From: Spirogloea muscicola
Taxonomy: Eukaryota; Streptophyta; Zygnematophyceae; Spirogloeales; Spirogloeaceae
DNA length: 48,495 nt
Direction: 5' to 3'
Assembly (NCBI GenBank): GCA_009602725.1
Contig: WELB01000403.1
Coordinates: 1 to 48,495 of the forward strand
Shown here piece after piece: positions 9,269 through 42,665 of this stretch. The notes beneath the pieces are model-generated. The model was given only the letters and a program-made list of their open reading frames with translations, was not told the DNA's origin and made no database searches. The stretch's first letter is position 1; every line of letters begins with the position of its first letter. Both the position numbers and the translations under genes were made by a program.

Positions 9269-9269
9269 A

Positions 9270-11618: not shown

Positions 11619-11640
11619 TTGTGCCTCAAGTGATCAATTT

Positions 11641-11989: not shown

Positions 11990-12729
11990 CGTTGACATAC
12001 TGCCAGATGGCATAAACGCAGAGGAGCATCTGTTTGTAAGAGATCTATCAAGAGACGATCTGTTGCTAGTGGAGCACAGACAAGACATCCTGAGCAACCT
12101 ATCAGACGACGAAAAGACGCTGGCGCTGTGCCTCTGTAAGGTAATACAGAGTTTTAACAACAGGTGTGCGCGATAGCTTGACAGATTATTTAGTAAACCT
12201 GATACTCACTAACATGAGGTTTAATAAGTACCCATTTATCATGAACTTGCAGCCAGACTACTGCTTTCAAGTGCTAGGAAACAGAGTATCAGCCAAGCCT
12301 GATTTTAGCATTGAAAAGAGCAGGAGTGTGCTCTGCTTTGACGAAGACAAACACTTCCATTCGATAAGCTCGACCACAGAATACGGTGAATCTCAGATAG
12401 CAGCAGAAGTGCTGGCATGTGCTTTTACAAACTTTGACAGACCTGACAGTTTAACCCAGGGCAGAGGGCAGGAGATATTTGCTACAAGAGTCATAGGAAC
12501 AAGGTTAACATTCTACATGTGCATTGTAAGTGAAGAGTACTGCAGGTGTGACAGTATTCGCGTAGAATGTCATGTCCCCGATTTTTCTTATGAAGTCGAG
12601 ATCGTCGATGATTTATTGAGCTGCTCTCTACTCAGAGCAATAAAAAGCAGGCTTATCTTGTTGAATATGGCTCATTGCAAGCTTCACAGATGTGCAATTA
12701 CTGTGCGGAATCCACTAGACGCTTTGTAA
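11990..12729 (+). pseudogene. Frameshifted PD-(D/E)XK nuclease-like gene
   Basis: An N-terminal part (VDILPDGINAEEHLFV ... LCLCKVIQSFNN) reads in one frame to a stop near 12175. The rest continues in another frame from about 12166 (RDSLTDYLVNLIL). The core is intact: SAKPDFSIE, LCFDEDKH and YGESQIAAEVLACAFTNF. The alignment with 23043-23897 spans the join, so one frameshift has split the gene. No ATG fits the second frame until residue 18. The extreme N-terminus is not found, perhaps removed when the adjacent element (ending ~11849) arrived. Confidence 0.65.
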
Positions 12730-15907: not shown

Positions 15908-16894
15908 TTATGCGGCTTTAAAGCACTCTCTGATCTCTATTGACATACCGTTTAACATCTTTGTAAGGAGTTCACGATCTGCTGGACGCAACAGATTACA
16001 ACCAGGTGTACTACCAGAAAATAGCGGATCTTTAGGAGAGTATCTTAAGACGCTGAACGGTGTGCTTCTTCTTGTACCGGTTTTAACCGATGTTATGAGT
16101 TCTCTATCAAATATCGCTTTATACACACTCACAAAGACATCTGTCACTCTAAACATAAATATTGGCGCTCTTTCAGGCCACCTCTCTTGCTGTGCAATTG
16201 CTATGGCTTCTGCTATCAGCTGCGCTTCGGCGTTGTCCCATTGAGATGGTGTTCTTGACGAGTCTCGAGGCTTGTCTTCTACAACAATAACTCCCACATA
16301 CAACTTATCAAACAATATTGCAACTATGTCAGCTGTTGCCTTTCGCTTGACGTTTGATATGTATAAGTCCATGTCATATCTTTGTGTTATAAGGAATTCG
16401 CTCGTGTCCATAACACTTTCCATGAACTTTTGGAACATATTGTCTACACAGCTCTCCATAGAAGGGTTATTCAAGACTAGAACAATGCATCTCTGAAATT
16501 CTGTTGCTGCCATTCTTACCTGCTCCATGCCTATCTTGTCTGCAAGCGTTGACAATGCAAAATCCTTGTTGCTATCTATAAAACGTAGAGCCTTCTCTGA
16601 CAGAGGAGCATCTGTGTTGACTATACTATCTGGAGATACATCTTCAGAGACTATGTTGTAATAATCAAGTTCTGTACTAGTCCAGCCTGATCCAGGTGAC
16701 ACAGGGATTGTCTTTGTCTTAACAATATGGTCTGACGATAGGAATGTCTCTAGTATGCTCCGTAAGTCCTGGTCTATCAGGAATCTGATAACATCTGCTT
16801 CAGAAATAACTCTGTCATTAACTAATGTTCGCATAGCATGGACCTTTCTTCCATTATCAATATTCAGGTTTGTAATTGGTTTTAGGAGGTCCAT
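15908..16894 (-). CDS. PD-(D/E)XK nuclease-like family protein, long form
   Basis: 328 residues, ATG start, complete, and the longest family member here, with ~55 extra N-terminal residues. It contains PGSGWTSTELDYY, as in 4642 and 8095. The core is KATADIVAILF, VIVVEDKPR (E-D-K) and NAEAQLIAEAIAIAQQE. All core residues are present. The last 12 codons with about 100 bp of downstream DNA are duplicated in inverted orientation at 35278-35410, where they are fused to a primase fragment. No signal peptide. Confidence 0.78.
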   Translation of the reverse strand: MDLLKPITNLNIDNGRKVHAMRTLVNDRVISEADVIRFLIDQDLRSILETFLSSDHIVKTKTIPVSPGSGWTSTELDYYNIVSEDVSPDSIVNTDAPLSEKALRFIDSNKDFALSTLADKIGMEQVRMAATEFQRCIVLVLNNPSMESCVDNMFQKFMESVMDTSEFLITQRYDMDLYISNVKRKATADIVAILFDKLYVGVIVVEDKPRDSSRTPSQWDNAEAQLIAEAIAIAQQERWPERAPIFMFRVTDVFVSVYKAIFDRELITSVKTGTRRSTPFSVLRYSPKDPLFSGSTPGCNLLRPADRELLTKMLNGMSIEIRECFKAA

Positions 16895-17027
16895 TGTGCT
16901 CTCTTAGTTGCATTGATTGTCCACAAACAATCAGTTATTATGACGATCTTAAAGGCGTGTAGATCAGCACTGCAGCAACTTCTGCGTGCTCCATCAAAAT
17001 CTGCAAGGCAATCTCTTTAGTGATATT

Positions 17028-18659: not shown

Positions 18660-18785
18660 ATTACTATACTCACTTACTCAAAGTGGAATAATAATAATAA
18701 GATAATTGTGTTAAGTATTCTCTGTGTAGTTTGATAATAATCTAGTGTGCTAACATATTATAGGGTTTTTGTAGCTATTGTTAGG

Positions 18786-18835
18786 TTTTGAGTAAGCTGA
18801 GTAAGTTTGAGTAAGTTGTCGACTTACTCAAATTG
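18786..18835. repeat. GAGTAAG iteron cluster before start codon
   Basis: TTTTGAGTAAGCTGAGTAAG, TTTGAGTAAG, then the inverted copy ACTTACTCA, followed by AATTGAAG and shortly the start codon. Same order as at the other two large elements. Probable origin and/or promoter of the element. Confidence 0.65.
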
Positions 18836-18860: not shown

Positions 18861-21098
18861 ATGTCGATGGGGAACAACAGAGCCGACCTCGAGTTCTTGC
18901 AAGACTTGTTCAAAAAGTTCGTGCCGGCAAAGATATCCGGATCATCGCATGCAGGTAAGAGCAGCAAGAAGCCTATATTTGAAGGATGGCTTAATATAAC
19001 AGAGGAGCAATCTAGAGACCTAGCAAGCCATGCCAAGTACAAATCTGGCCCATTCATCTTCATAACAGGTCAGAGCACGCAGTTTATGACCTTGGATGTG
19101 GATATAAAGGATCCTTCTAGAGAGGACCATGCAGATAAGATAGATGGGGTGTCGTATTGGGACAAGATACATCCAGATAGCACAAACACGCTGATTATAA
19201 AGACTCCTAGTGGCGGCTTCCATCTTGTATACAAGTACGATAATGGGATCAAGAGCGGCCAGCTAGAGAAGGATGTCTTGATCGACATACTATCAGACGG
19301 TAAAGGGATGTGCTTTGGGCCGGGTTACAAGATTCTTAGTCGTGCACGGCCGTTGTCACCACCTAGGGAGCTTGTTCAGCAGATAATATTTAATCAGAAT
19401 GTCAACTACGGAAATCAACATATAGTGAACAGAGATTCTAGGAGAGTCTGTTCATCAAAAGAGATAAACATCGTCACTGGCTGCAATCTTGTATGGGATG
19501 TAATACCCTCTCCTGACGGCAAAGTATTTACAATAATACCTCACACGAACACGTGTACAGTAGATGAGCACTATTTTCACAGCGAGTCTAAACATAGCCG
19601 CTTCATAATTACTAAGAGGCACGTAGTTGCAAGGTGCTTTAGCCATACGGTAGATCGCGAGGTTGTAGGCGTTGCGTCAAAGAAGCTTCGTGAACTGTTC
19701 TTTCCGCACGATGTAGACCCTTTCGAACACTTTATGCACAACCTGTTCAAGCTTTGCAACGATGGCCTTATGGGAAGGATGAATGGGCAAGTCTGGAAGG
19801 TGAGGAAAGAAAAGCCGTGGATATACGACCAGTTGTTATCATATGAGGACTTTGTGAACAAAGAATTCTCAGGAGATTCTCTCTTTGTAAAGAATCCCAG
19901 GAAGTTCTCGGATGTTGTGAAGTACATGGAATCTATTGACAATCCAAGCTTCCCCTTTCTGCATAAAGACTTGGATTACATAGGCTTTGACAACTGTGTA
20001 CTAAATATCGTCACGCTAGAGGTTGGCAACAGCTGGAAGCAGGGCACGTTGCCCAGGCACAATATCGACCAGGCATTCAGCTGGGACAACCTAAGCACCC
20101 CCCTATTTGACAGCTTATTGCAGTATCAATTGGGGAGTGGTGATGTGTTCCAGTATTTTTTGGGCCTCATAGGCAGGCTACTATTTGCTGTTAAAAGATT
20201 TGACAACTACAACATAGTGCCTATTATAAAGGGTGATACGGGAACTGGCAAGAGCACAATCCTAGAAGTCGTGCAAAGAATGTTCGCTCCAGGGACTGTT
20301 GGGGTTCTAAATACGAACAACGAGACTACCTTTGGGCTTCAGAACAAGTACAATAAAGAGCTGCTTATAGCCCACGAAATAGGGGACAGTTTTACAAGCA
20401 GGCTTTATAGTGACCTATTCAAGCAGATGGTGTGTGGTGAGGATGTGAGCGTCCCCCGTAAGAACAAGGATGCCCTTGATGTCAAGTGGCGCGTCCCTAT
20501 GCTAATATGCTCCAACATTCACATACCATATACTGATAGCCAAGGATCCGTCAGCCGCAGGTTAGCTATATTCAGGTTTGACAGGTATGTTGAGCACAAA
20601 GATGCTACGCTTGAGACAAACATAATAGGGTCTGAGCTACCAGCAATCGTAGGCAAGTGTCTACTAGCCTACAAGGCGATGTTAGACACAAGCGACTCTT
20701 TCTGGGCTGCATGTCCAGAATACTTCAATGAGAACACCCGCGAGATGAGCGAGCAGACGGACTACATATACATGTTCCTGACTCTACCACCGGGTGACAA
20801 CGTGTACGGCAATAAAGACGTGTACTTTATGAGGCAGCCAGGTGCATCAATGCTGCTACAGGATTTTAGAACCAAATTCATCAACTATATGCGGTTTAGG
20901 CATCCAGGAATCAAGTATAAATGGACGTCTGATTACAGTGCTTTAAAGAGACTCGGGTATCAGATTGAGCACATCAACGTCTGTAAGGGGTGCAAGAGTA
21001 TTGCAAAGGTAGGCTGCTGCGATAGATACAACATTGCAAACAGGAGCAAGCGCTACTTTATCAAGGATCTAGCGTGTATAGAGATGTCTGATGAGTAA
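18861..21098 (+). CDS. Primase-polymerase / SF3 helicase (D5-like)
   Basis: 745 residues, complete. The primase-polymerase part has FMTLDVD (Asp79, Asp81) and TPSGGFHLVYK (His121). The middle Cys/His segment has CTVDEHYFHSESKH and ARCFSH. The helicase has Walker A GDTGTGKST (458-466), Walker B ELLIAHE, motif C MLICSN and SVSRRLAIFRF. The C-terminal cysteine cluster is CKGCKSIAKVGCC followed by NRSK. All motifs are intact. Base composition is close to the surroundings, unlike the copy at 9270. The stop codon lies inside an iteron (GATGAGTAACTTGAGTAAC). It should prime and unwind DNA at the element's own iterons; this is inference from domain content and position. Confidence 0.88.
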   Translation: MSMGNNRADLEFLQDLFKKFVPAKISGSSHAGKSSKKPIFEGWLNITEEQSRDLASHAKYKSGPFIFITGQSTQFMTLDVDIKDPSREDHADKIDGVSYWDKIHPDSTNTLIIKTPSGGFHLVYKYDNGIKSGQLEKDVLIDILSDGKGMCFGPGYKILSRARPLSPPRELVQQIIFNQNVNYGNQHIVNRDSRRVCSSKEINIVTGCNLVWDVIPSPDGKVFTIIPHTNTCTVDEHYFHSESKHSRFIITKRHVVARCFSHTVDREVVGVASKKLRELFFPHDVDPFEHFMHNLFKLCNDGLMGRMNGQVWKVRKEKPWIYDQLLSYEDFVNKEFSGDSLFVKNPRKFSDVVKYMESIDNPSFPFLHKDLDYIGFDNCVLNIVTLEVGNSWKQGTLPRHNIDQAFSWDNLSTPLFDSLLQYQLGSGDVFQYFLGLIGRLLFAVKRFDNYNIVPIIKGDTGTGKSTILEVVQRMFAPGTVGVLNTNNETTFGLQNKYNKELLIAHEIGDSFTSRLYSDLFKQMVCGEDVSVPRKNKDALDVKWRVPMLICSNIHIPYTDSQGSVSRRLAIFRFDRYVEHKDATLETNIIGSELPAIVGKCLLAYKAMLDTSDSFWAACPEYFNENTREMSEQTDYIYMFLTLPPGDNVYGNKDVYFMRQPGASMLLQDFRTKFINYMRFRHPGIKYKWTSDYSALKRLGYQIEHINVCKGCKSIAKVGCCDRYNIANRSKRYFIKDLACIEMSDE

Positions 21099-21360
21099 CT
21101 TGAGTAACCTTATAATCCCCCTTCCAATATCCGACTTACGAAGACAAGTGCAACACATGAGCACCTATATGGCTTACTCAACTTACTCAAAACCTGTTAA
21201 AAGCAGCATCACTGTAATCCTCCTTTTTATTCCCACTCTAATAGTTGTTATAAATACTCTCTGTAAAAGCCTACATTTTGCTTAAGTTTACTGGATATTA
21301 ATCTTGAGTAAGTATGAGTAAGTTTGAGTAACTAGTGGACTTACTCAATCGAGTCTTTCG

Positions 21361-22712: not shown

Positions 22713-23042
22713 CCGTTCAGCGCAGCATAATAACACATAGCTATAAGTCGGCTACGCTATTAACACCTAACTACGTCCCTGTTTTACTAATTATTCTGTA
22801 CATGGTAAAGAGTAATTATGGCAATATGGCCTCAAAAGATTGTTGATCGTGCTTGGATATCCTGTGTTTAGTGCATCTCTCTAAAAAATCACATGTGTTT
22901 TACAGGCATACTTTTACAAAATTGCGCTTGCTTCGGTTCTTATTAATATTGTCTAAAATCAATAAAAAACTATTAGCACTTCTACGCAGCCTTACAATTG
23001 AAGGGCACTGGTTGTAGTCTTATATTATATGGCCTTGCTGAT
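22713..23042. other. Intergenic stretch
   Basis: AT-rich, no gene or repeat recognised. A frame from a TTG at 22998 would extend the next gene by 15 codons but lacks an ATG. Confidence 0.4.
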
Positions 23043-23897
23043 ATGGAAGATAGGACAAGGTCTGGGCAACTTGCTTCTGTCAAGCACAAAAGCTTGAAGC
23101 GTTTTCCGAATTCTACAAGTGATTTTAGAAGGATTGACATTGTTACTCTCAACGTTGAGTATAAAGATGCTGAGAGTATCAATGATCTACTGTTTGTGCA
23201 ACCCGATTGGGACTTTGATGTCTGTAATGATGTGTACGTTGAGAACCTAGGTCTGCCTGATATAATAAACCTTCAAGAACGCTTAGCATCCGCAGACATA
23301 GACAACAAAGCGAAGACATTTGTTCAGCTCATATGCGATGTAGCGCAAAATGAGCTTGTTACAATAAGCACAGAAGAGTCAAGAACAGACTCTCTTGTAT
23401 GTCACCTGTTTGAAAGACTTGGATTCAATGACTATCCGTTGATGATACGGCATCAACCTCTGTTTAAGTTCTCGATCTACAACAAGGAGATATCGTCGAA
23501 GTACGATTTTGCAATAGTACGAGACAGAAGGGTGATGCTAGTCGACGAAGACAAGCACATAAAGAACACTGGCCCTCCTTCTGCGTGGGGTGAATATCAG
23601 ATTGCAGGAGAGCTTATAGCGGGTGCATACTGCAACTATCTGTCTAAGAGGACATACAATGAGACATTATATGCAGTAAGAGTGATAGGCCTAAGGTTCA
23701 CGTTTTATAGAGCTATAATATCGCCGGAGTATCTAGACTCTTTGGGCGAAGGTCTTCCTTCAACATCTGTGATCATACATAGATTCCCACCTGATGACAA
23801 GGTGCAGGACTTCCCTTCTCTTAATTATGGTAAGGCCATAGATAGAACACAGATAATAGATATACTTGTTCGTATACGTGAGTATCTAAGAAATTAG
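23043..23897 (+). CDS. PD-(D/E)XK nuclease-like family protein
   Basis: 284 residues from the ATG at 23043. The core is SSKYDFAIV, VMLVDEDKHIKN and WGEYQIAGELIAGAYCNY, followed by YAVRVIGLRFTFYRAI. It aligns end to end with 2294-3136 (opposite strand), including NSTSDFRRIDIVTLNVEYKDAE against DSTSDFREIDTRSLNIVYQDAE near the N-terminus. Core acidic, Lys and Gln residues are intact. No signal peptide. The N-terminal third is charged and poorly conserved. Confidence 0.78.
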   Translation: MEDRTRSGQLASVKHKSLKRFPNSTSDFRRIDIVTLNVEYKDAESINDLLFVQPDWDFDVCNDVYVENLGLPDIINLQERLASADIDNKAKTFVQLICDVAQNELVTISTEESRTDSLVCHLFERLGFNDYPLMIRHQPLFKFSIYNKEISSKYDFAIVRDRRVMLVDEDKHIKNTGPPSAWGEYQIAGELIAGAYCNYLSKRTYNETLYAVRVIGLRFTFYRAIISPEYLDSLGEGLPSTSVIIHRFPPDDKVQDFPSLNYGKAIDRTQIIDILVRIREYLRN

Positions 23898-24051: not shown

Positions 24052-24814
24052 ATGAGGTACTCTGTTTTATTCGTTTTGCTTGCCGCTGTAGTCAGACGTC
24101 CATCGATATCTGATGCTAGCGTGCCTGTATCTCATGTAATTCATGAACATCCGCTTGAAATCTTGGAGTAACATGCTCGCGTTGTCATCCTTCGAGATGA
24201 GAATTATGCTGAGTAATATCATGTCTCTGAGACCAATTCGGAGTACGTTGGAGTCAGGTGGAGTCAGCTCGATTTGTTATGAAAAAAGTTATAATAAAGA
24301 TATGATACACCTTTTCTCCTTATTTCTTGTATGTTTTCTTAATATTTACAAATGGAGTACGGAGTACAGTCATAAAAGGTCTATAGAGGGATGGATACCC
24401 TAACACCATCATCTATAGATATTCTTATGAGCGTACTCCGTACTCCGTACTCCATAATTTTTTGTGATAGAAGATGTAAAGTAACATTCTTCATCCGCAC
24501 TGTTATTGTGGCCACCATGATGTCTCGCATGTACATTGTGCCAATCATGTCACATTTATCGCGTCTCAGATGATGTAGCGCCTGGAGCGGGGTATAAAAG
24601 CCACACAGTATTTGGCGGTGTATCTATTGGAGACAAGTGGGAGATCTACAGCTATGGACTTACTGATCCAGAAAAAGACCTGTGTTGGACTTACTATGGC
24701 AAACATACACCACTTGTAGTGGAAGATGCAGATGCTATTGTAGTGTTCAATGTAGATAAGATAAGACATATGGCAGAGATGATACACACAATGTTAGAAC
24801 AGCACACTCTTTAG
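24052..24814 (+). pseudogene. Gene remnant split by an element insertion
   Basis: 24052-24171 starts at an ATG with a signal peptide-like MRYSVLFVLLAAVVRRP and stops after 39 codons. 24536-24814 then encodes VFGGVSIGDKWEIYSYG, WTYYGKHTPL and VVFNVDKI, which matches the C-terminal part of the protein at 21888-22712 (VYGVVSTGYDWEIFSY, WKFYGRF, IVFNISNI). The middle, including the nuclease-like core, is gone, and the gap is filled by the GAGTACG element at 24185-24510. Whether both halves belonged to one gene is inference; the C-terminal match is clear. Confidence 0.5.
24185..24510 (+). mobile_element. Joined right/left ends of GAGTACG-type element
   Basis: It begins with a trace of the primase-helicase C-terminus (CTTCGAGATGAGAATTATGC), then GAGTACGTTGGAGTCAGG and further GAGTCAG words, an AT-rich spacer, then GGAGTACGGAGTACAGTCAT and TCTATAGAGGG. 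After ~8 bp an inverted set follows: CCCTAACACCATCATCTATA and CGTACTCCGTACTCCGTACT. A right end therefore faces a left end across a short gap. The same arrangement occurs at 42369-42665. No coding capacity. Confidence 0.6.
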
Positions 24815-25553: not shown

Positions 25554-25830
25554 TTACTTTAAGAGATCTCTACCCTTCTCCAAACATATTTTGATATCAT
25601 AGCTGCTCCGTTTGCATGGGTTGTTTTGGAGGGTACATTGACATTTGGAACAGTCAGTTGCACTGCGTTGTGCACATGCTAAGTACGGGTTGCTATATAT
25701 ATTTTGCTCAGGATCACGCTTCTCTTCAGTACCGTTTATGCAGATACAATCTAGGATCAAACTTGCCACACACACTACTACACACAGGATATCCCGATAT
25801 TGAGTGCAACTTGTGTCTAGATGGAGTCCT
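25554..25830 (-). pseudogene. Probable broken secreted cysteine-rich gene
   Basis: An open minus-strand frame without an ATG reads RDILCVVVCVASLILDCICI (a signal peptide-like segment), then NGTEEKRDPEQN, ACAQRSATDCSKCQCTLQNN and a few more cysteines before a stop at 25554. It resembles the class of 6530-7297. Its 5' end runs into the start of the divergent gene at 25821, so it was probably truncated. Confidence 0.35.
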
Positions 25831-26699
25831 TAAGAAAGAGAAGAGTTGTTGATTATGACGATACTCGCACATACGACAACTATGTGTTACTAAGTTTGGA
25901 CAAGATAAAGTCTACCAGTAGTTGGGACAATATCGTTACCAGTTCTCTAAAGATAGAGACAAAAGATGTACACGATATAAGCGCCATGTTTGAATGCAAC
26001 CTAGACATATATAATGAGGCGGAAATCCTGCGAATTCCCGAATGGAAAGACGGGAAATGGTTAAAAAACGCAGACATAAAGTGCATAAACGCGAGTAACA
26101 AAGTAAAGACTCTTGTTGGAAAGATAAAGAACATATACATGGCTAACAGCAGTCTAGCTGAAGTACACGTAGATGGCTTTATGGACAGTCTGTTGCACAT
26201 CATGTGCTTTGACGATTATCCATGTTTCCTTTATCCTCAGTACGAGTATTCAGCAGACATAGGAGATACCAAGATAAAGGCTAAGTCTGATTTTAGTGTC
26301 TTGTCTGAATCGTCTAGAGTTCTCCTGGTAATCGAGGATAAAACTTCAACCAACTCAAGCTATGCGAACAGGTGGAAAGAAGATCAGGTCCTAGGAGAAC
26401 TATTTGTAGCTGTCCATAACCTTGTTGCTAAAAAGTCGTACCCTATAAACGTGTATGCTATAAGAGTTGTAGGAACGCTATTCACGTTTTACAAGGCTGT
26501 AGCAACACTGGATTACATAAAAGAGACTGCGAGAGGGCTCCCAAGTATATCTAAGATGGAGGTCCAGCGGCATCCTCCGGTTGTAGACGACCCATCTGGG
26601 CTGACGGCATATAACATATGTGATATAAACGACAGGACATTGATATTGGGATGTATGTGCTCTATAAGAAGGTACGTGTCATCAGATTCTCATAAATAA
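25821..26699 (+). CDS. PD-(D/E)XK nuclease-like family protein
   Basis: 292 residues, ATG start, complete. The core is KAKSDFSVL, VLLVIEDKTSTN and WKEDQVLGELFVAVHNLV, then YAIRVVGTLFTFYKAV. The block VDGFMDSLLHIMCFDDYPCF precedes the core and aligns with TEVYSFMMSLLQYLKFDEWP in the frameshifted gene at 47127. Asp, Glu, Lys and Gln are all present. It opens with a basic stretch (MESLRKRRVV), as do 39304 (MANPRKRKHV) and 47127 (MRRRKKRSY), possibly a nuclear targeting signal. No signal peptide. Confidence 0.77.
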   Translation: MESLRKRRVVDYDDTRTYDNYVLLSLDKIKSTSSWDNIVTSSLKIETKDVHDISAMFECNLDIYNEAEILRIPEWKDGKWLKNADIKCINASNKVKTLVGKIKNIYMANSSLAEVHVDGFMDSLLHIMCFDDYPCFLYPQYEYSADIGDTKIKAKSDFSVLSESSRVLLVIEDKTSTNSSYANRWKEDQVLGELFVAVHNLVAKKSYPINVYAIRVVGTLFTFYKAVATLDYIKETARGLPSISKMEVQRHPPVVDDPSGLTAYNICDINDRTLILGCMCSIRRYVSSDSHK

Positions 26700-27034: not shown

Positions 27035-27289
27035 ACCCTATATTTACGCGCGCATACTATAAAATAATAAACATTGACAATGACGCATGCACAATCATCA
27101 TGTTGACTATGCTACCCTGCATATTACGTGCAAATAGATATACATCTAACGTTGACTTTCATGTGTGTGTGAGTTGTTCTTTTCTCTCTCTCCTAATCTC
27201 TTGTCTTCAACGCAAGATATTATAATAACCTTATATTAACTCACACACACTCACACATATTTGAGAAAAAAACATCATAAATATAGAGC
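27035..27289. repeat. Left terminal inverted repeat
   Basis: Outer end ACCCTATATTTACGCGCGCA; inner end near AACATCATAAATATAGAG. It contains TGTGTGTGAGTTG near 27165 and AACTCACACACACTCACACA near 27238. Differs from the right copy at only a few positions (for example TAAAATA against TGAAATA, and a C/T in GCTACCCTGCA). Confidence 0.85.
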
Positions 27290-27310
27290 GATTGAGTGCT
27301 AAAGTTGTGA

Positions 27311-27343
27311 TGTGTGAGTATGTGTGAGTAGGCTACTCACACA
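27311..27343. repeat. GTGTGAGT iteron cluster before start codon
   Basis: GTGTGAGTATGTGTGAGTAG followed by the inverted ACTCACAC and AAAATTGATAA: two forward copies, one inverted, then the AAATTGA word, as in the other elements. Confidence 0.7.
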
Positions 27344-27393
27344 AAATTGATAAAAAAACGCACTAAAAAGCGCACGATATTAAACAGAATGCA

Positions 27394-29022
27394 ATGGAAG
27401 ATACGACAGACATGCAGTTTCTCCAAGGTCTGTTTAAGAAGTTCGTGCCCGCGAAGGTGTCAAACGAAGGCGGCAAGAGGTCTAAACGCCCTATATTTAC
27501 AGGTTGGCTCAATGTGACGGCCAAGAAATCGATTTAATTAGCGCGTTGTGCTGAGTACGAGCATGGTCCTTTTATATTCCTGACAGGCAAGGCCACCAAG
27601 TACATGACAGTAGATCTTGACAGAAACGATGTGCTCAGGAAGGACCACGGAAATAAGCAGGACGGGGTTTTGTACTACACTAACAAGTTTGGTGACCTGG
27701 GATCGATCAAGACGCCAAGTGGCGGCTACCATCTCGTGTACAAGTACCGTGAGGGCATCAAGAGCGAGCAATTAGAGAAGGATGTGCTAATCGATATACT
27801 ATCCGACAATAGAGGCATGTGCTTCGGCCCAGATTACGGGATCGTAAACAAGATTATGCCGTCGTCTCCGCCAACCGAACTCGTACAGCACATATTCAAT
27901 GTGCAGAACAACATAAATGTTAATTGCAGCAATCAAGTTAATAACAACGTGTTCGCCACAGCCGCTGCCGCAAGACCAGACTATTCGTATTCAGATAAGA
28001 TAAATAATATCATAGAGACAGATTGGCAGTGGTACGTCGTGTCAAGCGATAGGCGATGTTACAAGCTCGTGCCGCTCACACGGACATGTATGGTTGATAA
28101 AGGGCATGAACACACGGACACAAAGCACAGCTGCCTGGTTGTTAGCAAGACGCGGGTCACGGCCAAGTGCTTCAGCCACGGAGAGAGTGCAATAACGCTG
28201 AATTCTAACAACGAGACCACGTTCGGTTTAGAAACAAGGTATGATAAGGAGGTACTTATTGCACACGAGATTGGCAATAATCTCACACACAGACTGGAGT
28301 CCGACCTGTTCAAACAGATGGTGTGCGGAGAGGACATACACATACCCAGAAAGAACAAGAGCGCTATTGACATCCGATGGCGCACTCCATTGTTCTTATG
28401 CTCAAATGTGCATCTGTCTTACAAGGATGTCCAGGGCTCTATAAGCCGCAGGCTCGTCATATTCCGATTCGATAACTATGTGACCGACGCGCACAAGGAC
28501 ACGTCACTCGAGGCGAAGATCTTAGGGTCAGAGCTCCCTGCCATCATAGCCAAGTGCCTGCATGCGTACAAGCTAATGCTATCAACGATTGGCAACGAAT
28601 CATTCTGGAGGTGTTGTCCGGATTACTTTAACGACAATACTGATCAGATGAAGGAAGAGACCGATTACATCTACATGTTCTTAACGCTACCTCCTGGCGA
28701 CAATATTTACGGCGGAAACAGCGTGTATTTTATGAAGGATGATAACACAAGCATGTCACTTCAAGATTTCAAACGGATGTTCATGAATTACATGAGATAC
28801 AGACACGCCGGAATCCGATACCGATGGACATCTGACTACAGCTCTATCAGGAAACTTGGTTACGAAGTTGAATACGGCAGTATTTGCAAGGGTTGTGGAC
28901 AAGAGGCCAAGCTAGGGTGCTGTAGCCGTTACAGTGTGGCCAACAGGTGCCGAAGGTTTATCATCAAGTATCTTCGTTGCGTTGAAATACCCGTGCAAGA
29001 GTATGATTACATGTGTGAGTAA
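27394..29022 (+). pseudogene. Defective primase-helicase: nonsense codon and deletion
   Basis: From the ATG at 27394 (MEDTTDMQFLQGLFKKFVP) the frame is homologous to 18861-21098 throughout. It has a TAA at 27535-27537, then continues in the same frame to 29022. Primase motifs are present (YMTVDLD, TPSGGYHLVYK). After AKCFSHGESAIT it jumps to LNSNNETTFGLETRYDK, so about 220 residues are missing in frame, including Walker A. Walker B (EVLIAHE), motif C (LFLCSN) and the cysteine cluster (CKGCGQEAKLGCC) remain. It cannot encode a working helicase. The last codons and stop (TGTGTGAGTAA) are formed by an iteron. Confidence 0.8.
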
Positions 29023-29064
29023 CCAACTCACACACACTCACACACCACGCATTAAGAACATAAT

Positions 29065-29320
29065 AGCTCTGTATTTATGATGTTTTTTTCTCAAATATGT
29101 GTGAGTGTGTGTGAGTTAATATAAGGTTATTATAATATCTTGCGTTGAAAACAAGAGATTAGGAGAGAGAGAAAAGAACAACTCACACACACATGAAAGT
29201 CAACGTTAGATGTATATCTATTTGCACGTAATATGCAGAGTAGCATAGTCAACATGATGATTGTGCATGCGTCATTGTCAATGTTTATTATTTCATAGTA
29301 TGCGCGCGTAAATATAGGGT
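29065..29320. repeat. Right terminal inverted repeat
   Basis: Reverse complement of 27035-27289 with a few differences. Contains TGTGTGAGTGTGTGTGAGTT near 29099 and CAACTCACACACAC near 29182. Outer end ...AAATATAGGGT at 29320. Confidence 0.85.
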
Positions 29321-29494: not shown

Positions 29495-29745
29495 CTGTGC
29501 ACATACTGCAACTTCAGCTGGGACCAGATAGACACGCCCGTTTTCGACAGCTTAGTACAGGACCAGCTAGGTGATGGCGAGATATACGGGTACCTGTTGG
29601 CTCTTATAGGAAGGCTCTTCTTTGCAACCAAGCGCTTTGATAACTACGGTGTTGTACCCTTAGTAAAGGGCGACACAGGCACCGGTAAATCTACGCTGTT
29701 AACTGTTATAGAGCACATGTTTGCTCAGGGCTCTGTAGGGGTCTT
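29495..29745 (+). pseudogene. Helicase-core fragment with Walker A
   Basis: Encodes CNFSWDQIDTPVFDSLVQDQ, then GYLLALIGRLFFATKRFDNY and KGDTGTGKSTLL, ending at AQGSVGVL before unrelated sequence. It corresponds to about residues 400-483 of the protein at 18861, and stops almost exactly where the defective gene at 27394 resumes after its deletion. Upstream codons in this frame (29351 on) are not homologous. A displaced gene piece lying just outside the right TIR. Confidence 0.75.
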
Positions 29746-29799
29746 ATGTTTATCCTTATCTTTGATACATGCGCTTTAGACATCCTCCGCCTCCACACG

Positions 29800-30052: not shown

Positions 30053-30390
30053 AGTGGGGCCAATCTTTCGCATATCGATATCATCCTCAATGTCGTGTGC
30101 GTGGAGGAACATTTGGGACATGAGGAGTTTGAGTAGGAGTGCTCTTTTTGTGGGTAAATATGCTGTGTTTTGGCTCGTACATGGGTACGATGGGTATTTC
30201 TGGGTACGTTCGATAAATGGCTCGGTGTGATGCTTTTGGCAGTACTCTGCCTGAAGCTTCCGCTCTTTTGTGAATAAAAGGTAGATGGGTACGAACATCT
30301 TTTTAGTTCCATAGTGCATGGGTATACCATCCACCCGGCAATCCGGCCATATGCTGTGGATGGAGGCTACGTGCTTTCGGCATCTTTTGG
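30053..30390 (+). mobile_element. Right end of GGGTACG-type element
   Basis: 30055-30140 encodes the very C-terminus of a primase-helicase (SHIDIILNVVCVEEHLGHEE, stop TAG). GGGTACGATGGGTATTTCTG and GGGTACG follow near 30180-30215, then another GGGTACG near 30275. The outer part, 30235-30390, is the reverse complement of 34795-34990, the left end of the same element type. Just before it, 29996-30035 matches the 3' flank of another fragment at 43220-43262. Confidence 0.6.
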
Positions 30391-30935: not shown

Positions 30936-31072
30936 GCAAATTGTTTGTGTGGACGAGCCGGTGATGTCCACCCGGGTCAAAAGTTGACAAAAATGCTCAT
31001 TGTCCCAAGTGGCAATGCGGGACCCGGTAAATTGATATGATTGCTATCAGAGTAAGCAATCTTACGTATGAT

Positions 31073-33745
31073 ATGATGGCTCTCATAAAATACTTACTTT
31101 TTGTCTCATTTTGTGGGCTATCCTATGCATCAACACAGTGTGGTCCAAACACGCCATGCGCATCGGGTTTGTGCTGTTCCAAATACGGTTGTGGGATTAC
31201 GTATGCGTATTGTGGTTTGGGATGTTTAAATGGGCCATGCCGTGTAAATTTTAATAAGATTGGGAATGTTACCGTATTTCTGTCAATCAAAGTCCCAGCA
31301 AATCGTATATCATGGTATGATTCAGAGAACCGACCTCGCCATGCTGACATCAGCGATATTACTGTATCAGACGTGAACGATAAGTTTGGCGGTTGTGTTT
31401 ACAGTTATGTATATCAGAATCCTGATGGTAGTACTGTTAGTTCAACCTGTAGTGACACTAATCATCCTTGTTTTGGCTTGTTTGTAAATCATCCCAAAAC
31501 TGGCCCTCCCAAAGATTCTGCATCTCAAAAGGGTCTATATTCACGTATTGAGTTTATTGGACCCAATCATGCGATCTTCTCTTCTAAGACTGCGTACCCT
31601 ATAAATGGTGTTCTTGTAACATCGACGGCAAAGACGTTCTTTGCTAATGGGCGGGACCATATGACCACAGCGTATACACAGTGCTCGTCAGGAAACAACG
31701 CGGGGGACCTTAGCGCTGACACCCGTTCTCCCTATGGCAATCTTGACTACGGGGGCTCTTCTACTGCTCCTGTAAGCAATATTGAATGGGGTACAGATCG
31801 TGTGTTTTTTACTACAAATTTGAATGCTGCCTATACTAATGGATGGGATGACACTAGTGCAAATATTGTTCCATACGCAGTAGGTTCAAAAGGTTCTATA
31901 AATGCACAGATGGGATATGTTAGTACTCAAACACAGATGCAGAATGCGGGCGGTAATACAGATGGAGAGTCATTCTACCATGGCCAAAAGAGCAACGGAC
32001 CAATGCCTACAGGTCCGGAACTTGCGTACCAATTCAATCAGTACGAGAGTACAACTGGTGATCCACCTGTTTATATAACTTCGTCAAAGATTGCTTGGCA
32101 AACAAATATCGGCAGGATTACTGGCACAGGCTGTTACAGTCACTCTGTTACTGCGGCTATAGGACAGCTATTACTAGACCCTGTTCACCATGAAGTACGC
32201 GAAGTAGAGACTTTACAAGCAATTACACTTACGGGCGGGACAAACTTACAAACAGTAACAACTGGCCCTGCAGGTGTGTCTAGAGACGATCAGATATTGT
32301 ACAAGCCCCCCGGGTATAACCACATATACAAGACGTGGAACTTGCATATTATTAACAATACTGCTAGGGATTTCTCATTCTCTTTTAATCTTCCGAAAAA
32401 GACAGGAGCTGTTCTGAAAAATCCGGTCTTTGTGCTTAGTAATTGGCCTGTTGTCTCATTGCCTATTACGGTCTTTATTGGCAATACCGTTCTGCACAGT
32501 GGGTCTGATGTCCTTCTTAGTGTCTTATCTCAAGCAGTATGGCCCACGTTCGGCGAAAACAGACTGTATATGACCCTTATGCAATCCATTGACGCAAGTG
32601 TTTCTGCTCAGCATTTAGTCCTGCGCATATCATTAGGTCAATCACTACCATCGAAGAAGTCTCCGCCTGGCCATCACAAGCACAATCCACCGCCTCCTCC
32701 CCCTTTGAGTTGCACAATCCAAGAATGCCAATCGTGTGTTAACGAATTCCGTGGTGGACTATTTGCCATTGGTAACAGACTAAAGAATTCACTAGGACAA
32801 TCAGTGCGCCTTCACGGAGTGAACATACCAAGCTTAGAATGGGGCAACGGCGATCCTGCTAGTGATAGTAACCCTCTCCCGTGTTATAAAGGGCAAAGCA
32901 TCATTGATTCTGTAAAGAAAGCTATCAGCGATTGGCACGTAAACTTCATTCGTATCCCAATCAGTCAAGATCGTTGGTGGAATGCGGTTGATGGAAAGGT
33001 CGATTCATATCGTGCTACAGTTGACAGCATTGTTGGTTATGCATCAAGCAATGGTGTTTACGTGGATATTGACTTGCACTGGAGCAATGGAGGGACTTGG
33101 GGAGGCTCCAATCCTGGTCAATATAATATGCCAGATGATAACACAACTCCCGTACTAGCAGATATAGCATCGCGATATGCTAGTAATCCTTATGTTATTT
33201 TGGGCATATACAACGAGCCACGCGATGTGTCGTGGAGTATTTGGCTCCATGGCGGTCAGGTGGTAAACGAGGAAAGGAAAAAAGGCGTCTTTGTAAGCTA
33301 TCACACGCCAGGGATGCAAGCGCTTGTAAACAGTGTGCGGAAAGCAGGCTTTAACAACGTCGTTTCAGTAAGCGGCCTAGATTGGGGATTTGATTTACGT
33401 GGCATTGCTGAAGGCTTTGCCATTAGTGACAGTAACGTCATGTATGAGGCACACGTGTATCCGAACAAGAAAACAGAGAGTTGGTGGGATGAGAACGTGT
33501 CCATTATTAGTGCAAAGTACCCGATCCTTATTGGTGAGTTTGGCGCAACTTTTGACACTACAAAAGGGACGTTATATGCTACACCACAATCTTTCTTGGG
33601 AGTAGTTAAGACCTGGATCAGCAAACACAATTATAGTTTTAGTGCTTGGAGCATGCATCCTGGTGCAACGCCGCTGATAAAAGATTGGTGTTACGCGCCT
33701 ACAGATTACTTTGGAGCGCTGGTTATACCTTGGTTGAACCGTTGA
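31073..33745 (+). CDS. Secreted hevein-domain GH5 cellulase
   Basis: About 890 residues. The open frame begins at 31037, but the Met at 31073 directly precedes a signal peptide (MMALIKYLLFVSFCGLSYAS), so I prefer it. Next comes a compact hevein/CBM18-type chitin-binding module (CGPNTPCASGLCCSKYGCG, YCGLGC), then a large unrecognised beta-rich region of ~450 residues, a Pro-rich linker (HKHNPPPPPPLS) and a glycoside hydrolase family 5 domain. The GH5 has RLHGVNIPSLEWG, NFIRIPISQDRWW, GIYNEPRD (acid/base Glu715) and LIGEFGA (nucleophile Glu822). It should cleave beta-1,4-glucans extracellularly; the hevein module suggests chitin-containing walls. No introns. Flanked by inverted element ends. 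Confidence 0.85.
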   Translation: MMALIKYLLFVSFCGLSYASTQCGPNTPCASGLCCSKYGCGITYAYCGLGCLNGPCRVNFNKIGNVTVFLSIKVPANRISWYDSENRPRHADISDITVSDVNDKFGGCVYSYVYQNPDGSTVSSTCSDTNHPCFGLFVNHPKTGPPKDSASQKGLYSRIEFIGPNHAIFSSKTAYPINGVLVTSTAKTFFANGRDHMTTAYTQCSSGNNAGDLSADTRSPYGNLDYGGSSTAPVSNIEWGTDRVFFTTNLNAAYTNGWDDTSANIVPYAVGSKGSINAQMGYVSTQTQMQNAGGNTDGESFYHGQKSNGPMPTGPELAYQFNQYESTTGDPPVYITSSKIAWQTNIGRITGTGCYSHSVTAAIGQLLLDPVHHEVREVETLQAITLTGGTNLQTVTTGPAGVSRDDQILYKPPGYNHIYKTWNLHIINNTARDFSFSFNLPKKTGAVLKNPVFVLSNWPVVSLPITVFIGNTVLHSGSDVLLSVLSQAVWPTFGENRLYMTLMQSIDASVSAQHLVLRISLGQSLPSKKSPPGHHKHNPPPPPPLSCTIQECQSCVNEFRGGLFAIGNRLKNSLGQSVRLHGVNIPSLEWGNGDPASDSNPLPCYKGQSIIDSVKKAISDWHVNFIRIPISQDRWWNAVDGKVDSYRATVDSIVGYASSNGVYVDIDLHWSNGGTWGGSNPGQYNMPDDNTTPVLADIASRYASNPYVILGIYNEPRDVSWSIWLHGGQVVNEERKKGVFVSYHTPGMQALVNSVRKAGFNNVVSVSGLDWGFDLRGIAEGFAISDSNVMYEAHVYPNKKTESWWDENVSIISAKYPILIGEFGATFDTTKGTLYATPQSFLGVVKTWISKHNYSFSAWSMHPGATPLIKDWCYAPTDYFGALVIPWLNR

Positions 33746-34794: not shown

Positions 34795-35277
34795 CAAAAG
34801 ATGCCGAAAGCGCGTAGTTTATCTTTAAAATACTCCATCCATAGCATATGGCCGGATTGCCGGGTGGATGGTATACCCATGCCCCATGGAACTAAAGATA
34901 TGTCTGTACCCATATTACCCATTATCTATTTTATCCAAGAGTAAGCAGTTCCAAGGCAAAACACCGCCAAAAGCATCACGCTGAGCCATTTATCGAGCGT
35001 ACCCAGAGATACCCATCGTACCCAAAACTGAACCCCGACGGCGCATATTTTGATGCATTTTACGCGTTACACAATGGCTGCCCCCAAGCAAGCACTCGAT
35101 GCCCTGTTCGCCAACCTCGAATTAATCCGCTCATTCTGCAGCAGGTTTGTGCCGTGCTACGTCAAGTTCGAGGCAGGCAAGAACAAACACACCAAGGTGC
35201 CGGCCATCTCGGGCTGGACGTGCGTGACCCCGCAACAATCCCAAGCCCTGTTGATGCAGGAGCAGTTCGTCGGATAG
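34795..35277 (+). mobile_element. Left end of GGGTACG-type element with primase N-terminus
   Basis: 34795-34990 is the inverted equivalent of 30235-30390. GTACCCA words follow at 34916, 35007 and 35029, then CAAAACTGA and a start codon near 35074. The frame reads MAAPKQALDALFANLELIRS, FVPCYVKFEAGKNKHTKVPA and ISGWTCVTPQQSQALL, matching the first ~70 residues of 9270-11618. It is cut at 35277 by an unrelated duplicated segment. GC-rich like the 9270 gene. Confidence 0.7.
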
Positions 35278-35410
35278 AGATCAGAGAGTGCTTTAAAGCC
35301 GCGTAAACAAGGGGTACTCTGCATCTCATAGCCCCTTATAAGATCTTTTTAAGACATAAATAACCGGTGGTTTAATGTCTTTATGCTTAAGAATAAGCGG
35401 CTGTTATCTG
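35278..35410 (-). pseudogene. Inverted copy of a nuclease-like gene 3' end
   Basis: Near-identical reverse complement of 15810-15942: the last 12 codons of the gene at 15908-16894 (EIRECFKAA, stop) and about 100 bp downstream. The junction at ~35277 falls inside the primase fragment, so the copying event truncated that gene. Confidence 0.75.
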
Positions 35411-35797: not shown

Positions 35798-36714
35798 ATT
35801 CCCTTTCTAAGCCTATCACCATAAGCTTCTTGCTCCTGTTAGATGCACAGTAATTGCTGCAGCAACCTTTTGTCGCGTGCTGGTTGCAAGACTTGCAAAC
35901 ATTTACATACTTCTTATCAAAGCAGAGCTCCTCTTCTCTCCAGTTGGGCCCCCGCAATAGCCTCATCTCCTTGTAGCTTGTCATCGTGCCGCGCCTGTAG
36001 TGCGCGCTAATAAAATCGGAGAAACTATTGCACCTTAAGTGCAGGTTCTCCAGCTTGCTCTCTAAGCTTCCAAATACGTGCTCTACAAGGTGCTCTGGCA
36101 CATCGCATGGCTTGCGCTTCTTGTGGATAAGGCAGCCCTCTGTGTAGCTTAGAGACGGGATTGTTGTCACCCCTTCAAATATGCGCCTCTTAGGCCTGCG
36201 TGCAGAGTGATTGAATACAAGCATTACTCTGTCGTCGTTATCTCCGATTATTAGTGTCTCTTCTTCCATAGGGTCCTTTATCCTGCTCTTGTAGTTCTCG
36301 TAGCCCTCCTCTACCTGCAGCCTTACAATGATGCCGCCTATGTCATCTACTTTACTGAACATTGTCCTTAGGTATGCTGTGTCCCGCTCTAGCCGCTGCG
36401 CAAGGACTCTGCTCATCTAAGATCCAGTACCCTACCGCTTGCCCTGCTCCAGAGACCACTCTTACGCGTATGTCTTTGCTCTTGTTCGTCTTTACAACAA
36501 GGGTGCCAGGGGGGAGCTTTAGTTCTGTCCTAAACATCACAGTAAACATGCCATCGGAGGATGTTCCTGTGTCCCCTGGCCTGATGTTCATAACCCTATT
36601 GCATGCCTCGAAGTCCTCGTAGCTCTCGAAGCTTAGTGCTGCATAATAAGAAGACATAGCTCCTCTATAGCAGGGGAGCTGCACCTGCTCTCTAAAGATC
36701 ATTTTAAGAAACAA
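35796..36714 (-). pseudogene. Zn-tail protein with iteron array, frameshifted
   Basis: Two overlapping frames. 36352-36714 encodes 120 residues (MSSYYAALSFESYEDFEACN, LPPGTLVVKTNKSKDI) and 35796-36416 encodes 206 residues (LAQRLERDTAYLRTMFSKVD onward). The second ends in NVCKSCNQHATKGCCSNY then NRSKK, the same Cys cluster that closes the primase-helicases (CKGCKSIAKVGCC, NRSK). No Walker A or helicase motif is present; GTLVVKT faintly resembles the NTLIIKT segment of the primase domain. One frameshift between 36352 and 36416 would join them, or they are two overlapping genes. The array at 35739 suggests a distinct, divergent element type. Confidence 0.55.
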
Positions 36715-38115: not shown

Positions 38116-38997
38116 TTATACAACAATGACTCTTTCTAGCTGCACCTTTATACAGTGTAATATCCTTACAATGTTATCTCTCTGGTTTATCCTGTTCAAT
38201 GATAGAGGATATTCACTTGCGCTTGGGAACCTTTTTATTAGCGTTTTTGCGCTAGGAATCTTGTTCCTTGTTATAAAAGAGAGGCAATCTTTTGAAAAGA
38301 CACCCCTGTAAAAGCGTGCATCTAGACCACTTAGTATAAGACCAAAGACTACTTTATCGTCTCTCTTGTTGTTGTACCTGTCTAGTGCAGACGCAAGCAT
38401 TTCTCCGCATAACTGGCACTCTTTGTAATGTTTGCTGTAGTTCCCAGGAGCTTTGTCTTCTACGACCACTAAGTACTCATCAGTTAGGTGGCCGCTGGAT
38501 CGATCTAAAAATACTCCGTAGTCGGGGATAGATGTTATCTCATACGACAAGAAGGAGAATTTAAAGCGCGGTCTCGGCCTAAAGTGGAGGACTTCAGACT
38601 CGAATCCAGTGTAGGTGAGAAGATCTGATGCAACCGCGTCTACTGGTGGCTCGTCGTCAAAGACAGTCAACTGCACAAGTCTGTTGAAGAAAGCTCTTTG
38701 CTCTGCGGATATATGCATTGCCGAAGAAGAGTCTCTTACATCAGCGCATGAGAGCAAGAGTCTATTTGAATCTGGGTGCAGCATTACTGTTGTTATGTCA
38801 ATGTTCCCAACTATGTCATCTCGGGCACCGTCTTCTATATCTATCCTCAATATCTCGAGCTGTATGTATCTCCATCTAGATGTCTGTTCCCAGATCTCTT
38901 TAGAGTCATTAGGATGCTTGTAGTCCTCATCAGATGACATCCAGCTATCTTTTAACGGAGCAGCTAATACTCCTTTGCTACTCTTTGGGTCCGTCAT
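38116..38997 (-). CDS. PD-(D/E)XK nuclease-like family protein
   Basis: 293 residues, ATG start, complete. The core is ITSIPDYGVF, EYLVVVEDKAPGN and YKECQLCGEMLASALDRY. SIPD-Y keeps the Asp, E-D-K is intact and Gln sits in CQLCGE. The N-terminal third is acidic. About 100 bp upstream plus the first ~20 codons are duplicated at 44489-44643, and the non-coding part is as well conserved as the coding part. That duplication marks 38998-39097 as its probable promoter region. No signal peptide. Confidence 0.77.
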   Translation of the reverse strand: MTDPKSSKGVLAAPLKDSWMSSDEDYKHPNDSKEIWEQTSRWRYIQLEILRIDIEDGARDDIVGNIDITTVMLHPDSNRLLLSCADVRDSSSAMHISAEQRAFFNRLVQLTVFDDEPPVDAVASDLLTYTGFESEVLHFRPRPRFKFSFLSYEITSIPDYGVFLDRSSGHLTDEYLVVVEDKAPGNYSKHYKECQLCGEMLASALDRYNNKRDDKVVFGLILSGLDARFYRGVFSKDCLSFITRNKIPSAKTLIKRFPSASEYPLSLNRINQRDNIVRILHCIKVQLERVIVV

Positions 38998-39124
38998 TTT
39001 GCTGTCTATCTTGCGCTCTGCATGATGGCCTGTTCTGTCTGATACAAGGTCTCATAAAAAGCCTGTAATAATGCATAATATGTGCGCCTTTAGCAGGTCT
39101 GGGTGGGATACTCGCAATGACGTT

Positions 39125-39303: not shown

Positions 39304-40385
39304 TCAGCAAGAGAGATCTACTGCATACTTCCTTACTTTCCACAGGTCAGCTAGCAATCTCACTCTATCTTTTGGATCCGATATGCGGAGCCCCTTTCTC
39401 GATGGGTACTTGATCACTACAGCAGGCAAGGATGGGGGCCCTCTAGCAAGGCTGTGCAAGTACTCCTCTGTCAACGTTAGACAGTACAAGTGCACTTCAT
39501 CACCTTTTACCTTAATTCCAACTACCTTATCAGGGTACAAGTATCCTTTGTTCCTGTAGTTTGCTTGAAAAGCTGCTATCATGCATGCTGCTAGTTGCAC
39601 GTCGCCCTCGCTATATCTTGTGTCATCAATGTGCTTGTTCTCTTGCATCACCCATATAACATCAAGGCCCTTCCTGCCCTCTCTGTATGCCTCAGCCGCA
39701 AAGCTTCTGTCACCAACTACAAGCCTTAAAGAGCAAGGCCTCATAGTAAGGTCCTTGCCATTGTCGTACTTTACAGCCTTCAGGAGCTCTATTGCCATGT
39801 CGTCAATGAACCTCTCTTCCCTTGGGATATCGTTCACTCTGGCATTGTTCTCAAGCACAAGCCTTAGCTTAACCAGGAAGGAGAGAGAAGTCTCGCTCAT
39901 GCTCTGGTGGTCTCTTGGATCAAAGATCTTTATTTGCTCCTCATTAAAGCCTTCTAAGCAGCAGAGATCTCTTGCAGAATCTGGCATGTCTGGTGCACTT
40001 ATTACGCCCACGATGCTATCAAGAGAGTCCGTCTTATTTATTGTTATGCGCAAGCTGTCTTTTTCTATGTAATTAAACCTGCTTGTAGAGCTCTTGTATG
40101 AATGCCTATCAGATGGGTCAGTAAGCGNCTTGGATCAAAGATCTTTATTTGCTCCTCATTAAAGCCTTCTAAGCAGCAGAGATCTCTTGCAGAATCTGGC
40201 ATGTCTGGTGCACTTATTACGCCCACGATGCTATCAAGAGAGTCCGTCTTATTTATTGTTATGCGCAAGCTGTCTTTTTCTATGTAATTAAACCTGCTTG
40301 TAGAGCTCTTGTATGAATGCCTATCAGATGGGTCAGTAAGCGGCTCCTTGTAGCTTACGTGCTTCCTTTTCCTAGGATTGGCCAT
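39304..40385 (-). CDS. PD-(D/E)XK-like protein, interrupted by assembly duplicate
   Basis: As written, the gene is broken by a 215-bp insertion that repeats its own sequence around an N. Removing one copy leaves 288 codons from the ATG at 40385 (MANPRKRKHVSYKEPL) to the stop at 39304. It groups with 44795-45643: VIWVMQENKHIDDTRYSEGD and VQLAACMIAAFQANY stand where other members have E-D-K and the Gln helix. In this subgroup the Asp preceding the E-x-K strand is not obvious (AYREGRKGLDVIWVM), so activity is doubtful. The basic N-terminus could be a nuclear signal. Confidence 0.72.
39914..40342. other. Duplicated contig overlap around a single N
   Basis: 39914-40127 and 40129-40342 are the same 214 bp, separated only by the N at 40128. 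The break falls in the middle of an open gene whose frame is restored if one copy is removed. This is the signature of two overlapping contigs joined end to end rather than merged. Confidence 0.93.
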
Positions 40386-42299: not shown

Positions 42300-42665
42300 G
42301 ACACCCAAAACTGAACCCCGCCGGCATATCGATATCATTACCAATATTATTTATGTGGAGGAGCACCTTCGGGATGATAATTATGCAGAGTAATATCAGA
42401 CTCCTGAGACCAATTTAGAGTACGATGGAGTCAGGTGGAGTCAGGTCGATTTGTTATGAAAAAAGTTATAAGCAATAACAATATATACCTTTATTCTCCT
42501 TATTTCTTGTATTATTTCTTAATATTTACAAATGGAGTACGGAGTACAGTCGTAAAAGGTCTATAGAGGGATGGATACCCTAACACCATCATCTATAGAT
42601 ATTCTTATGAGCGTACTCAGTACTCCATAATTCATTTGTGATAGAAGATGTAAAGTAACACTCTT
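42300..42665 (+). mobile_element. Deletion derivative with joined element ends
   Basis: A 5' leader (CCCAAAACTGAACCCCG, as at 35020) is fused directly to the last codons of a primase-helicase (HIDIITNIIYVEEHLRDDNY, stop). GAGTACGATGGAGTCAGGTG iterons follow. From 42369 the sequence parallels 24185-24510: spacer, GGAGTACGGAGTACAGTCGT, TCTATAGAGGG, short gap, then the inverted left-end set with CGTACTCAGTACTCC. All coding sequence except the tail is gone. Confidence 0.6.

Follow-up and report, generated by a model that had tools for sequence, protein, structure and literature searches.

Primase-helicase genes between mirror-image iteron repeats in the Spirogloea muscicola assembly: a probable family of minimal one-gene replicons

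Contig WELB01000403.1 of the Spirogloea muscicola assembly GCA_009602725.1 carries, at positions 27035-29320, a short unit in which terminal inverted repeats (TIRs) with mirrored iterons enclose the remains of a single primase-helicase gene. We consider that this unit, hereafter the 27k copy, probably belongs to a family of minimal one-gene replicons, in which a primase-helicase lies between two mirror-image iteron origins that appear as the TIRs, and we put the probability of this reading at roughly 0.6. The members of the family are now mostly relics. The stretch analysed, called the window, is the entire contig (C403; 48,495 bp), and the assembly as a whole comprises 153,112,186 bases in 471 contigs. 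Other loci are named by contig and gene start (e.g., C463:10961), and those in the window by gene start.

The 27k copy is bounded by a left arm at 27035-27343 (+) and a right arm at 29012-29320 (−), each 309 bp long, which pair with each other at 95% complementarity. The initial annotation of this DNA gave the TIRs as ~255 bp; its coordinates were right and ~255 bp is the length of the near-identical part, but the full arms are longer, with an outer ~250 bp that is nearly identical and an inner ~55 bp that has diverged. A search of the assembly (153 Mb) with the arm sequence returned those two places only. The near-identical, inverted and iteron-bearing termini described at that time are borne out by an exact word scan, in which all 12 copies of ACTCACACA in the window fall within the arms, six per arm and in mirrored order, whereas 100 dinucleotide shuffles gave a mean of 0.58 and a maximum of 3 copies per window. 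In the left arm, an outer iteron lies at 27166-27174 (−), a middle pair at 27239-27257 (+) and an inner set of three copies at 27311-27343; in the right arm, the inner set of three lies at 29012-29044, the middle pair at 29098-29116 (−) and the outer iteron at 29181-29189 (+). The two iteron sets of each arm enclose an AT-rich spacer of 53 bp with 72% AT, located at 27258-27310 (98th window percentile) and at 29045-29097. A telomeric origin of the arms, which start with ACCCTA, was considered and dropped, (TTAGGG)4 not being found in the assembly.

The sole open reading frame (ORF) enclosed by the arms is of the type first described, a primase-polymerase joined to a superfamily 3 (SF3) helicase, but it is not intact. 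Its start, at 27394-27537 (+), runs for 47 codons to an in-frame TAA at 27535-27537, and the remainder, at 27538-29019 (+), keeps an open frame through the primase part and then the helicase C-terminal part. Residues 264-481 of the paralogue at 18861-21095 (218 residues, including the Walker A/P-loop) have no counterpart in it. With a stop after 47 codons and ~218 residues gone together with Walker A, the gene is to be read as a relic, and a working primase-helicase cannot be encoded by the 27k copy as it is assembled. A helicase Walker A fragment, matching residues 406-483 of the 18861 protein at 67%, lies just outside the right arm at 29513-29746 (+). Neither Pfam nor PHROGs matched a transposase or integrase domain in the enclosed ORF, in agreement with the initial annotation, and in the sequence examined the TIRs are not part of a larger transposase-bearing element. 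An HUH endonuclease domain, as in Rep elements of the Helitron and CRESS kinds, was likewise neither matched by Pfam nor present among the fold matches listed, and no capsid, packaging ATPase or integrase gene lies between the arms beside the primase-helicase relic.

A search for paired iteron clusters around the SF3 primase-helicase genes, which had been suggested as a check, found them at 7/7 loci tested, so that the layout is recurrent and not a one-off. The test set consisted of the seven longest primase-helicase copies, shorter fragments being left out: 18861, 9273 and the 27k copy in the window, and C463:10961, C463:4943, C67:187617 and C290:123617 outside it (the last two hereafter C67 and C290). 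When 400 bp on each side of the gene were compared, the two flanks of every one of the seven loci both contained repeats of one 8-mer, and they aligned with each other as inverted repeats to an extent that none of 200 dinucleotide shuffles per locus reached; 18 other window genes gave no such result on either measure. Besides the 309-bp arms of the 27k copy, TIRs of 221 bp (95%), 180 bp (89%) and 196 bp (92%) are found at C463:4943, C67 and C290, respectively, and C463:10961 retains 110-bp inverted flanks at 75%. Where the TIRs are clear, which is the case at four loci (27k, C463:4943, C67 and C290), the arms are separated by only 1.6-2.4 kb, all of it taken up by the gene or what is left of it. 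As a rule, then, long copies of the gene in this assembly have inverted, iteron-bearing flanks.

Each iteron word is confined to a single copy or a close type. Over the four sequences scanned, four words each form clusters at one copy alone: ACTCACACA at the 27k copy, CTTACTCAA at 18861, TGACTCA at C463:10961 and GTACCCCA at 9273. Two others are less restricted, GTACTCC being clustered at C463:4943 and at the related terminal repeats in the window, and TACCCA at C67 and at four more window locations, of which two are truncated C67-type copies. The genes fall into two clades (pieces compared as they stand): clade A, comprising 18861, C463:10961 and the 27k copy, with 55-63% identity, and clade B, comprising 9273, C463:4943, C67 and C290, with 64-87% identity; identity between the clades is ~36-44%. 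Compared by eye, the iteron words are TGAGTAAGT, TGAGTCAGT and TGTGTGAGT in clade A, and TGGGGTAC, GGAGTAC, TGGGTAC and GGATA in clade B. Iteron words that track gene clades are the pattern expected of co-evolving initiators and their putative binding sites.

Of the 14 flanks, 12 have one or more spacers of 53-113 bp between two iteron sets with 68-81% AT, at or above the 98th percentile of coding and non-coding window stretches of equal length. Both flanks have two iteron sets around an AT-rich spacer at 6/7 loci. Judged by its composition and by analogy with known origins, each flank looks like a replication origin.

The copies are dispersed. The protein of 18861-21095 had 44 matches on 18 contigs, some of them weak (weakest E 9.6e-4), although some copies share flanks. 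The predicted model of this intact paralogue resembles the pRN1 primase-polymerase and a helicase of the type found in the Staphylococcus aureus pathogenicity island (SaPI) SaPI5 and in D5 proteins. Its best match among predicted viral structures is a D5 primase/helicase of Aureococcus anophagefferens virus (Foldseek E 3.9e-49, TM 0.50). At E ≤ 1e-3, 48 database proteins match the primase-helicase, the top two with 74 and 87% identity, and one of the 48 is from Pyramimonas; another relative has, in place of the primase part, an N-terminal domain that we take to be reminiscent of T5orf172-type proteins of large viruses. A phage collection gave three weak records and PADLOC gave weak ATPase matches only. 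No relative of the primase-helicase was found in GTDB genomes by pattern-based scans, in a plasmid collection by tblastn, or in 2.9 million viral contigs by a pattern-based scan that finds close relatives only.

These searches bear on two other origins. The copies could be what is left of endogenous DNA viruses of larger size, whether giant viruses or polinton-like or transpoviron-like ones, with a D5-type gene and terminal repeats as the surviving parts. The structural match to the Aureococcus virus protein would suit such an origin, as would the lack of relatives in the plasmid and GTDB collections. We nevertheless regard it as rather improbable: the 1.6-2.4 kb between the arms of the four clear-TIR loci is all gene or remnant, a Pfam scan of 20 ORFs or pieces from the window (which has 70 listed ORFs of at least 80 aa) recognised neither a capsid nor a packaging gene, and the viral contigs gave no match at the close range of that search. 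A search of the genome with Capsid_NCLDV also gave no hit, but the control genomes gave none either. Alternatively, viral or bacterial contigs in the sample, or an assembly artefact, could be suspected, since the contigs densest in matches are short (48 and 16 kb), and a published survey took two archaeo-eukaryotic primase (AEP) genes annotated as fungal for bacterial contamination (PMC5862659). This explanation is extremely improbable, given that matches also sit inside long contigs (689 kb, 874 kb and 1.48 Mb), that GTDB genomes, plasmids and viral contigs hold no relatives at the sensitivity of those searches, and that the named relatives of a neighbouring gene family come from Cunninghamella and Diversispora.

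The initial annotation proposed replication from the element's own iterons, and with the origin-like flanks and the predicted fold this is the best-supported mechanism that we infer. The single gene would encode a pRN1-type primase-polymerase fused to an SF3 helicase of SaPI/D5 type. This protein would bind its cognate iterons, the AT-rich spacer would be melted, and the protein would load there as a hexameric helicase, then prime and start DNA synthesis without a nicking endonuclease. The element could in this way replicate outside or ahead of the chromosome and be re-inserted, often in truncated form, via host end-joining or homologous recombination. Host repair of replicated and often broken molecules would explain the truncated copies as well as the missing target duplications. 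The 27k copy would then be a deletion derivative, replicable only with protein supplied by an intact relative.

Both the 27k copy and C290 combine good TIRs with genes missing large parts, which is the usual sign that ends acting in cis can be served in trans. In addition, terminal repeats of the C463:4943 type occur on C184, C52, C420, C9 and C61, where the protein search listed no gene. Long TIRs, dispersed copies, deletion derivatives and TIR-type sequence without a listed gene could also be left by a TIR DNA transposon, non-autonomous or self-sufficient, on whose ends an unlinked transposase acts, with the primase-helicase as cargo or aid. We consider such a transposon unlikely. No transposase domain was matched in the enclosed ORF, the outermost TIR sequence varies between subfamilies while the iterons and the layout are conserved instead, and a target-site duplication above chance was found at 0/5 elements, where the longest junction matches were 3, 5, 3, 4 and 3 nt and 45 of 300 random pairs reach at least 5 nt.

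Two further structures are related to the terminal repeats. A repeat dispersed over C184, C52, C420 and C9 is conserved at 76-86% across 0.7-1.4 kb; it includes a terminal repeat of the C463 type together with part of the region upstream of 9273, but no primase-helicase match. At C61:250323-251577 there is a gene-less inverted structure of 1.25 kb with 93% arms, in which the iteron order is gene-end, origin, gene-start; it is possibly derived from joined element ends.

At C67 and C290 only, the right TIR runs into a near-perfect giant palindrome, and part of the TIR reappears behind it. The palindrome at C67:190055-191136 has ungapped arms of 203 bp and a loop of 27 nt, and that at C290:122566-123284 has ungapped arms of 287 bp and a loop of 28 nt; the two are weakly alike (score 69 vs a best of 51 in 20 shuffles). 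Their form hints at the trace of a hairpin end or a tail-to-tail dimer. A bolder proposal is that the family represents a new class of eukaryotic mobile element, a self-replicating one-gene unit whose TIRs act as two mirror-image origins rather than as transposase sites. Such a unit would multiply extrachromosomally, perhaps as a hairpin-ended linear molecule or an inverted dimer, re-enter by host repair without duplications, and support gene-less or gene-broken derivatives in trans. We advance this proposal tentatively, at somewhat less than even odds.

Several observations weigh against the family being one of minimal replicons, or reduce the force of the tests. At 9273 the inverted flanks have degenerated, and at 18861 only the mirrored iterons and short matches between the flanks are retained. 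At C463:10961 the iteron sets are present and the AT-rich spacer is absent on both sides, and further spacers within the same flanks as the AT-rich ones are not AT-rich. The C290 flanks were positioned at the gene remnant once the TIRs had already been seen, the iteron words of the spacer comparison were picked by hand beforehand, and the mixed coding and non-coding background of the AT percentiles favours the result. The comparison of occupied and empty sites that had been suggested gave, besides the lack of target duplications at five elements, no empty site for the 27k copy in the assembly; its right flank matched itself alone, and its left flank matched elsewhere only as pieces of 39-76 bp. 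Some copies share flanks, and in cases such as C403:13871-14178 with C463:7774-7430 the shared sequence has the appearance of a segmental duplication and not of an insertion. The giant palindromes are seen at one element end only and may be a host repeat, because pieces of the C67 palindrome recur at other places in the genome. Finally, the mirrored iterons could serve transcription.

Another reading is a host gene family, for example a subtelomeric one, in which the mirrored repeats are autoregulatory sites and the copies have multiplied through segmental duplication and recombination, not as a mobile replicon. Flanks are duplicated in several cases, and several copies are located near contig ends or on small contigs, which is consistent with it. 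A host gene family is very unlikely in our judgement, as it leaves unexplained the two-sided symmetric iterons, the AT-rich spacers, the 300-bp TIRs and the TIRs around dead genes.

The window holds 15 separate places that match the primase-helicase, mostly short N- or C-terminal fragments, several of which still adjoin their own iterons or terminal repeat. Two paralogues are of intact length, one of clade A at 18861-21095 (+; 745 aa) and one of clade B at 9273-11618 (−; 782 aa). The left iterons of 18861, CTTACTCAA, lie around an AT-rich spacer at 18673-18831 (spacer 106 bp, 74% AT) and the right ones at 21173-21348 (spacer 113 bp, 68% AT). The iterons of 9273 likewise surround AT-rich spacers, at 9150-9270 on the 3' side (GTACCCCA) and at 11640-11760 on the 5' side. 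A right-end terminal repeat of a clade B copy of the C463 type, at 24234-24470 (−), adjoins a C-terminal gene fragment, and a second one of this type is located at 42411-42644 (−). A truncated copy at 34865-35328 (+) consists of a C67-type left terminal repeat with TACCCA iterons and an N-terminal gene fragment, and a C-terminal fragment at 35808-35933 (−) is followed by six CTGAGTGACT repeats.

The window also contains a fast-diverging family of ~290-aa genes, whose 11 ORFs, spread over 48 kb, are connected by blastp matches. Five are on the minus strand (2297-3154, 15911-16903, 38119-39051, 39307-40134 and 44798-45643), and the others are at 4618-5499, 8080-8937, 12145-12726, 22977-23894, 25821-26696 and 47416-48015. 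Six members, scanned alone or with others, had no confident Pfam match; of 37 database hits, two were named, from Cunninghamella echinulata and Diversispora epigaea, which taken by themselves would point to a mucoromycote fungus as the probable host. A PD-(D/E)XK nuclease fold is our guess from the sequence. As partners of the element these genes were rejected, and they are treated as neighbours outside it, because their flanks have no iterons or inverted repeats above shuffles (10/11 ORFs; 47416-48015 left out). The member at 25818-26659 is a mosaic, its 5' half being 96% alike to C104:5989-6436 and its 3' half 77% alike to C463 and C37, and a perfect 215-bp tandem duplication at 39914-40343 lies at the start of one ~290-aa gene.

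Two other genes were seen in the window. An open frame of 904 residues at 31031-33742 contains a GH5 cellulase domain and, with a score under the Pfam cut-off, a chitin-binding match. It was rejected as cargo of an element: the inverted TACCCA clusters at 30151-30319 and 34874-35019 belong with gene fragments of their own, which adjoin them on the sides away from the GH5 gene, and the latter thus lies between two truncated elements and not inside one. At 45760-46791 there is a gene for a NicO/HoxN nickel transporter, ~60% identical to actinobacterial proteins, for which the only names among the 120 listed of 8000 hits are bacterial; it is a candidate for horizontal transfer into a eukaryote.

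If a family of minimal replicons is indeed present, eukaryotic nuclear genomes host a type of minimal replicon familiar from bacterial satellites and archaeal plasmids, and such replicons could spread without transposase, integrase or capsid and might be a stepping stone between plasmids, satellites and the replication genes of giant viruses. Initiator and origin would then co-diverge copy by copy, and the copies would form a series of naturally matched initiators and iterons with which origin recognition by a primase-helicase could be tested. Should extrachromosomal or mobile forms be demonstrated, there would be a fair chance of a new mobile element class. A limited search of the open-licence PubMed Central literature found no description of a TIR-bounded one-gene unit in a nuclear genome among the top-ranked papers, and the features tested do not fit an island of the phage-inducible chromosomal island (PICI) kind, a Polinton or a cut-and-paste transposon.

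Among known systems, the D5-type primase-helicases (poxvirus D5/E5, African swine fever virus PrimPol and those of giant viruses) are among the best matches to the predicted fold. The viral D5-type primase-helicase is one gene of a very large genome, whereas here it is the only gene of a unit of 2-3.5 kb. Polintons, polinton-like viruses, virophages and transpovirons are integrated in eukaryotes or linear, some with TIRs and a primase-helicase. In protists, insertions of this kind generally span 15-30 kb and carry a capsid gene, in most cases together with an integrase. The linear, mimivirus-associated transpovirons hold 6-8 genes, compared with one gene here, and none of the elements described in these sources is a single-gene unit (PMC10120064, PMC3671162). 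In the fungus Rhizophagus irregularis, a 1.5-Mb viral region is reported to be without D5 (PMC10640383).

The component parts are already known from PICIs and pRN plasmids. With the pRN1-family plasmids (ORF904) the present family shares, according to the predicted model, a prim-pol domain of pRN1 type. However, pRN1 is a larger archaeal plasmid with further genes (3097 bp is 58% of pRN1), and its proposed origin is a stem-loop of ~100 nt and not a set of mirrored iterons. In respect of a stem-loop downstream of the rep gene, what is seen here is inverted iteron pairs 49-53 nt apart in several TIRs and, at C67 and C290 only, the giant palindrome beyond the right TIR. A primase fused to a D5-type helicase as initiator is common to the Pri-Rep-ori module of PICIs and SaPIs and the present family, in the predicted fold only. 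The origins of Escherichia coli PICIs are described as always having two iteron sets around an AT-rich region, and in Gram-positive PICIs the origin is stated to be the region 3' of the initiator gene (PMC6092414). Here, 6/7 right flanks, those 3' of the gene, have an AT-rich region with an iteron set on either side of it. Unlike an island, the 27k copy holds no integrase, packaging or other island gene between its TIRs, and it lies in a eukaryotic assembly; the origin-like module here is doubled, so that the gene stands between two copies of it in mirror-image orientation.
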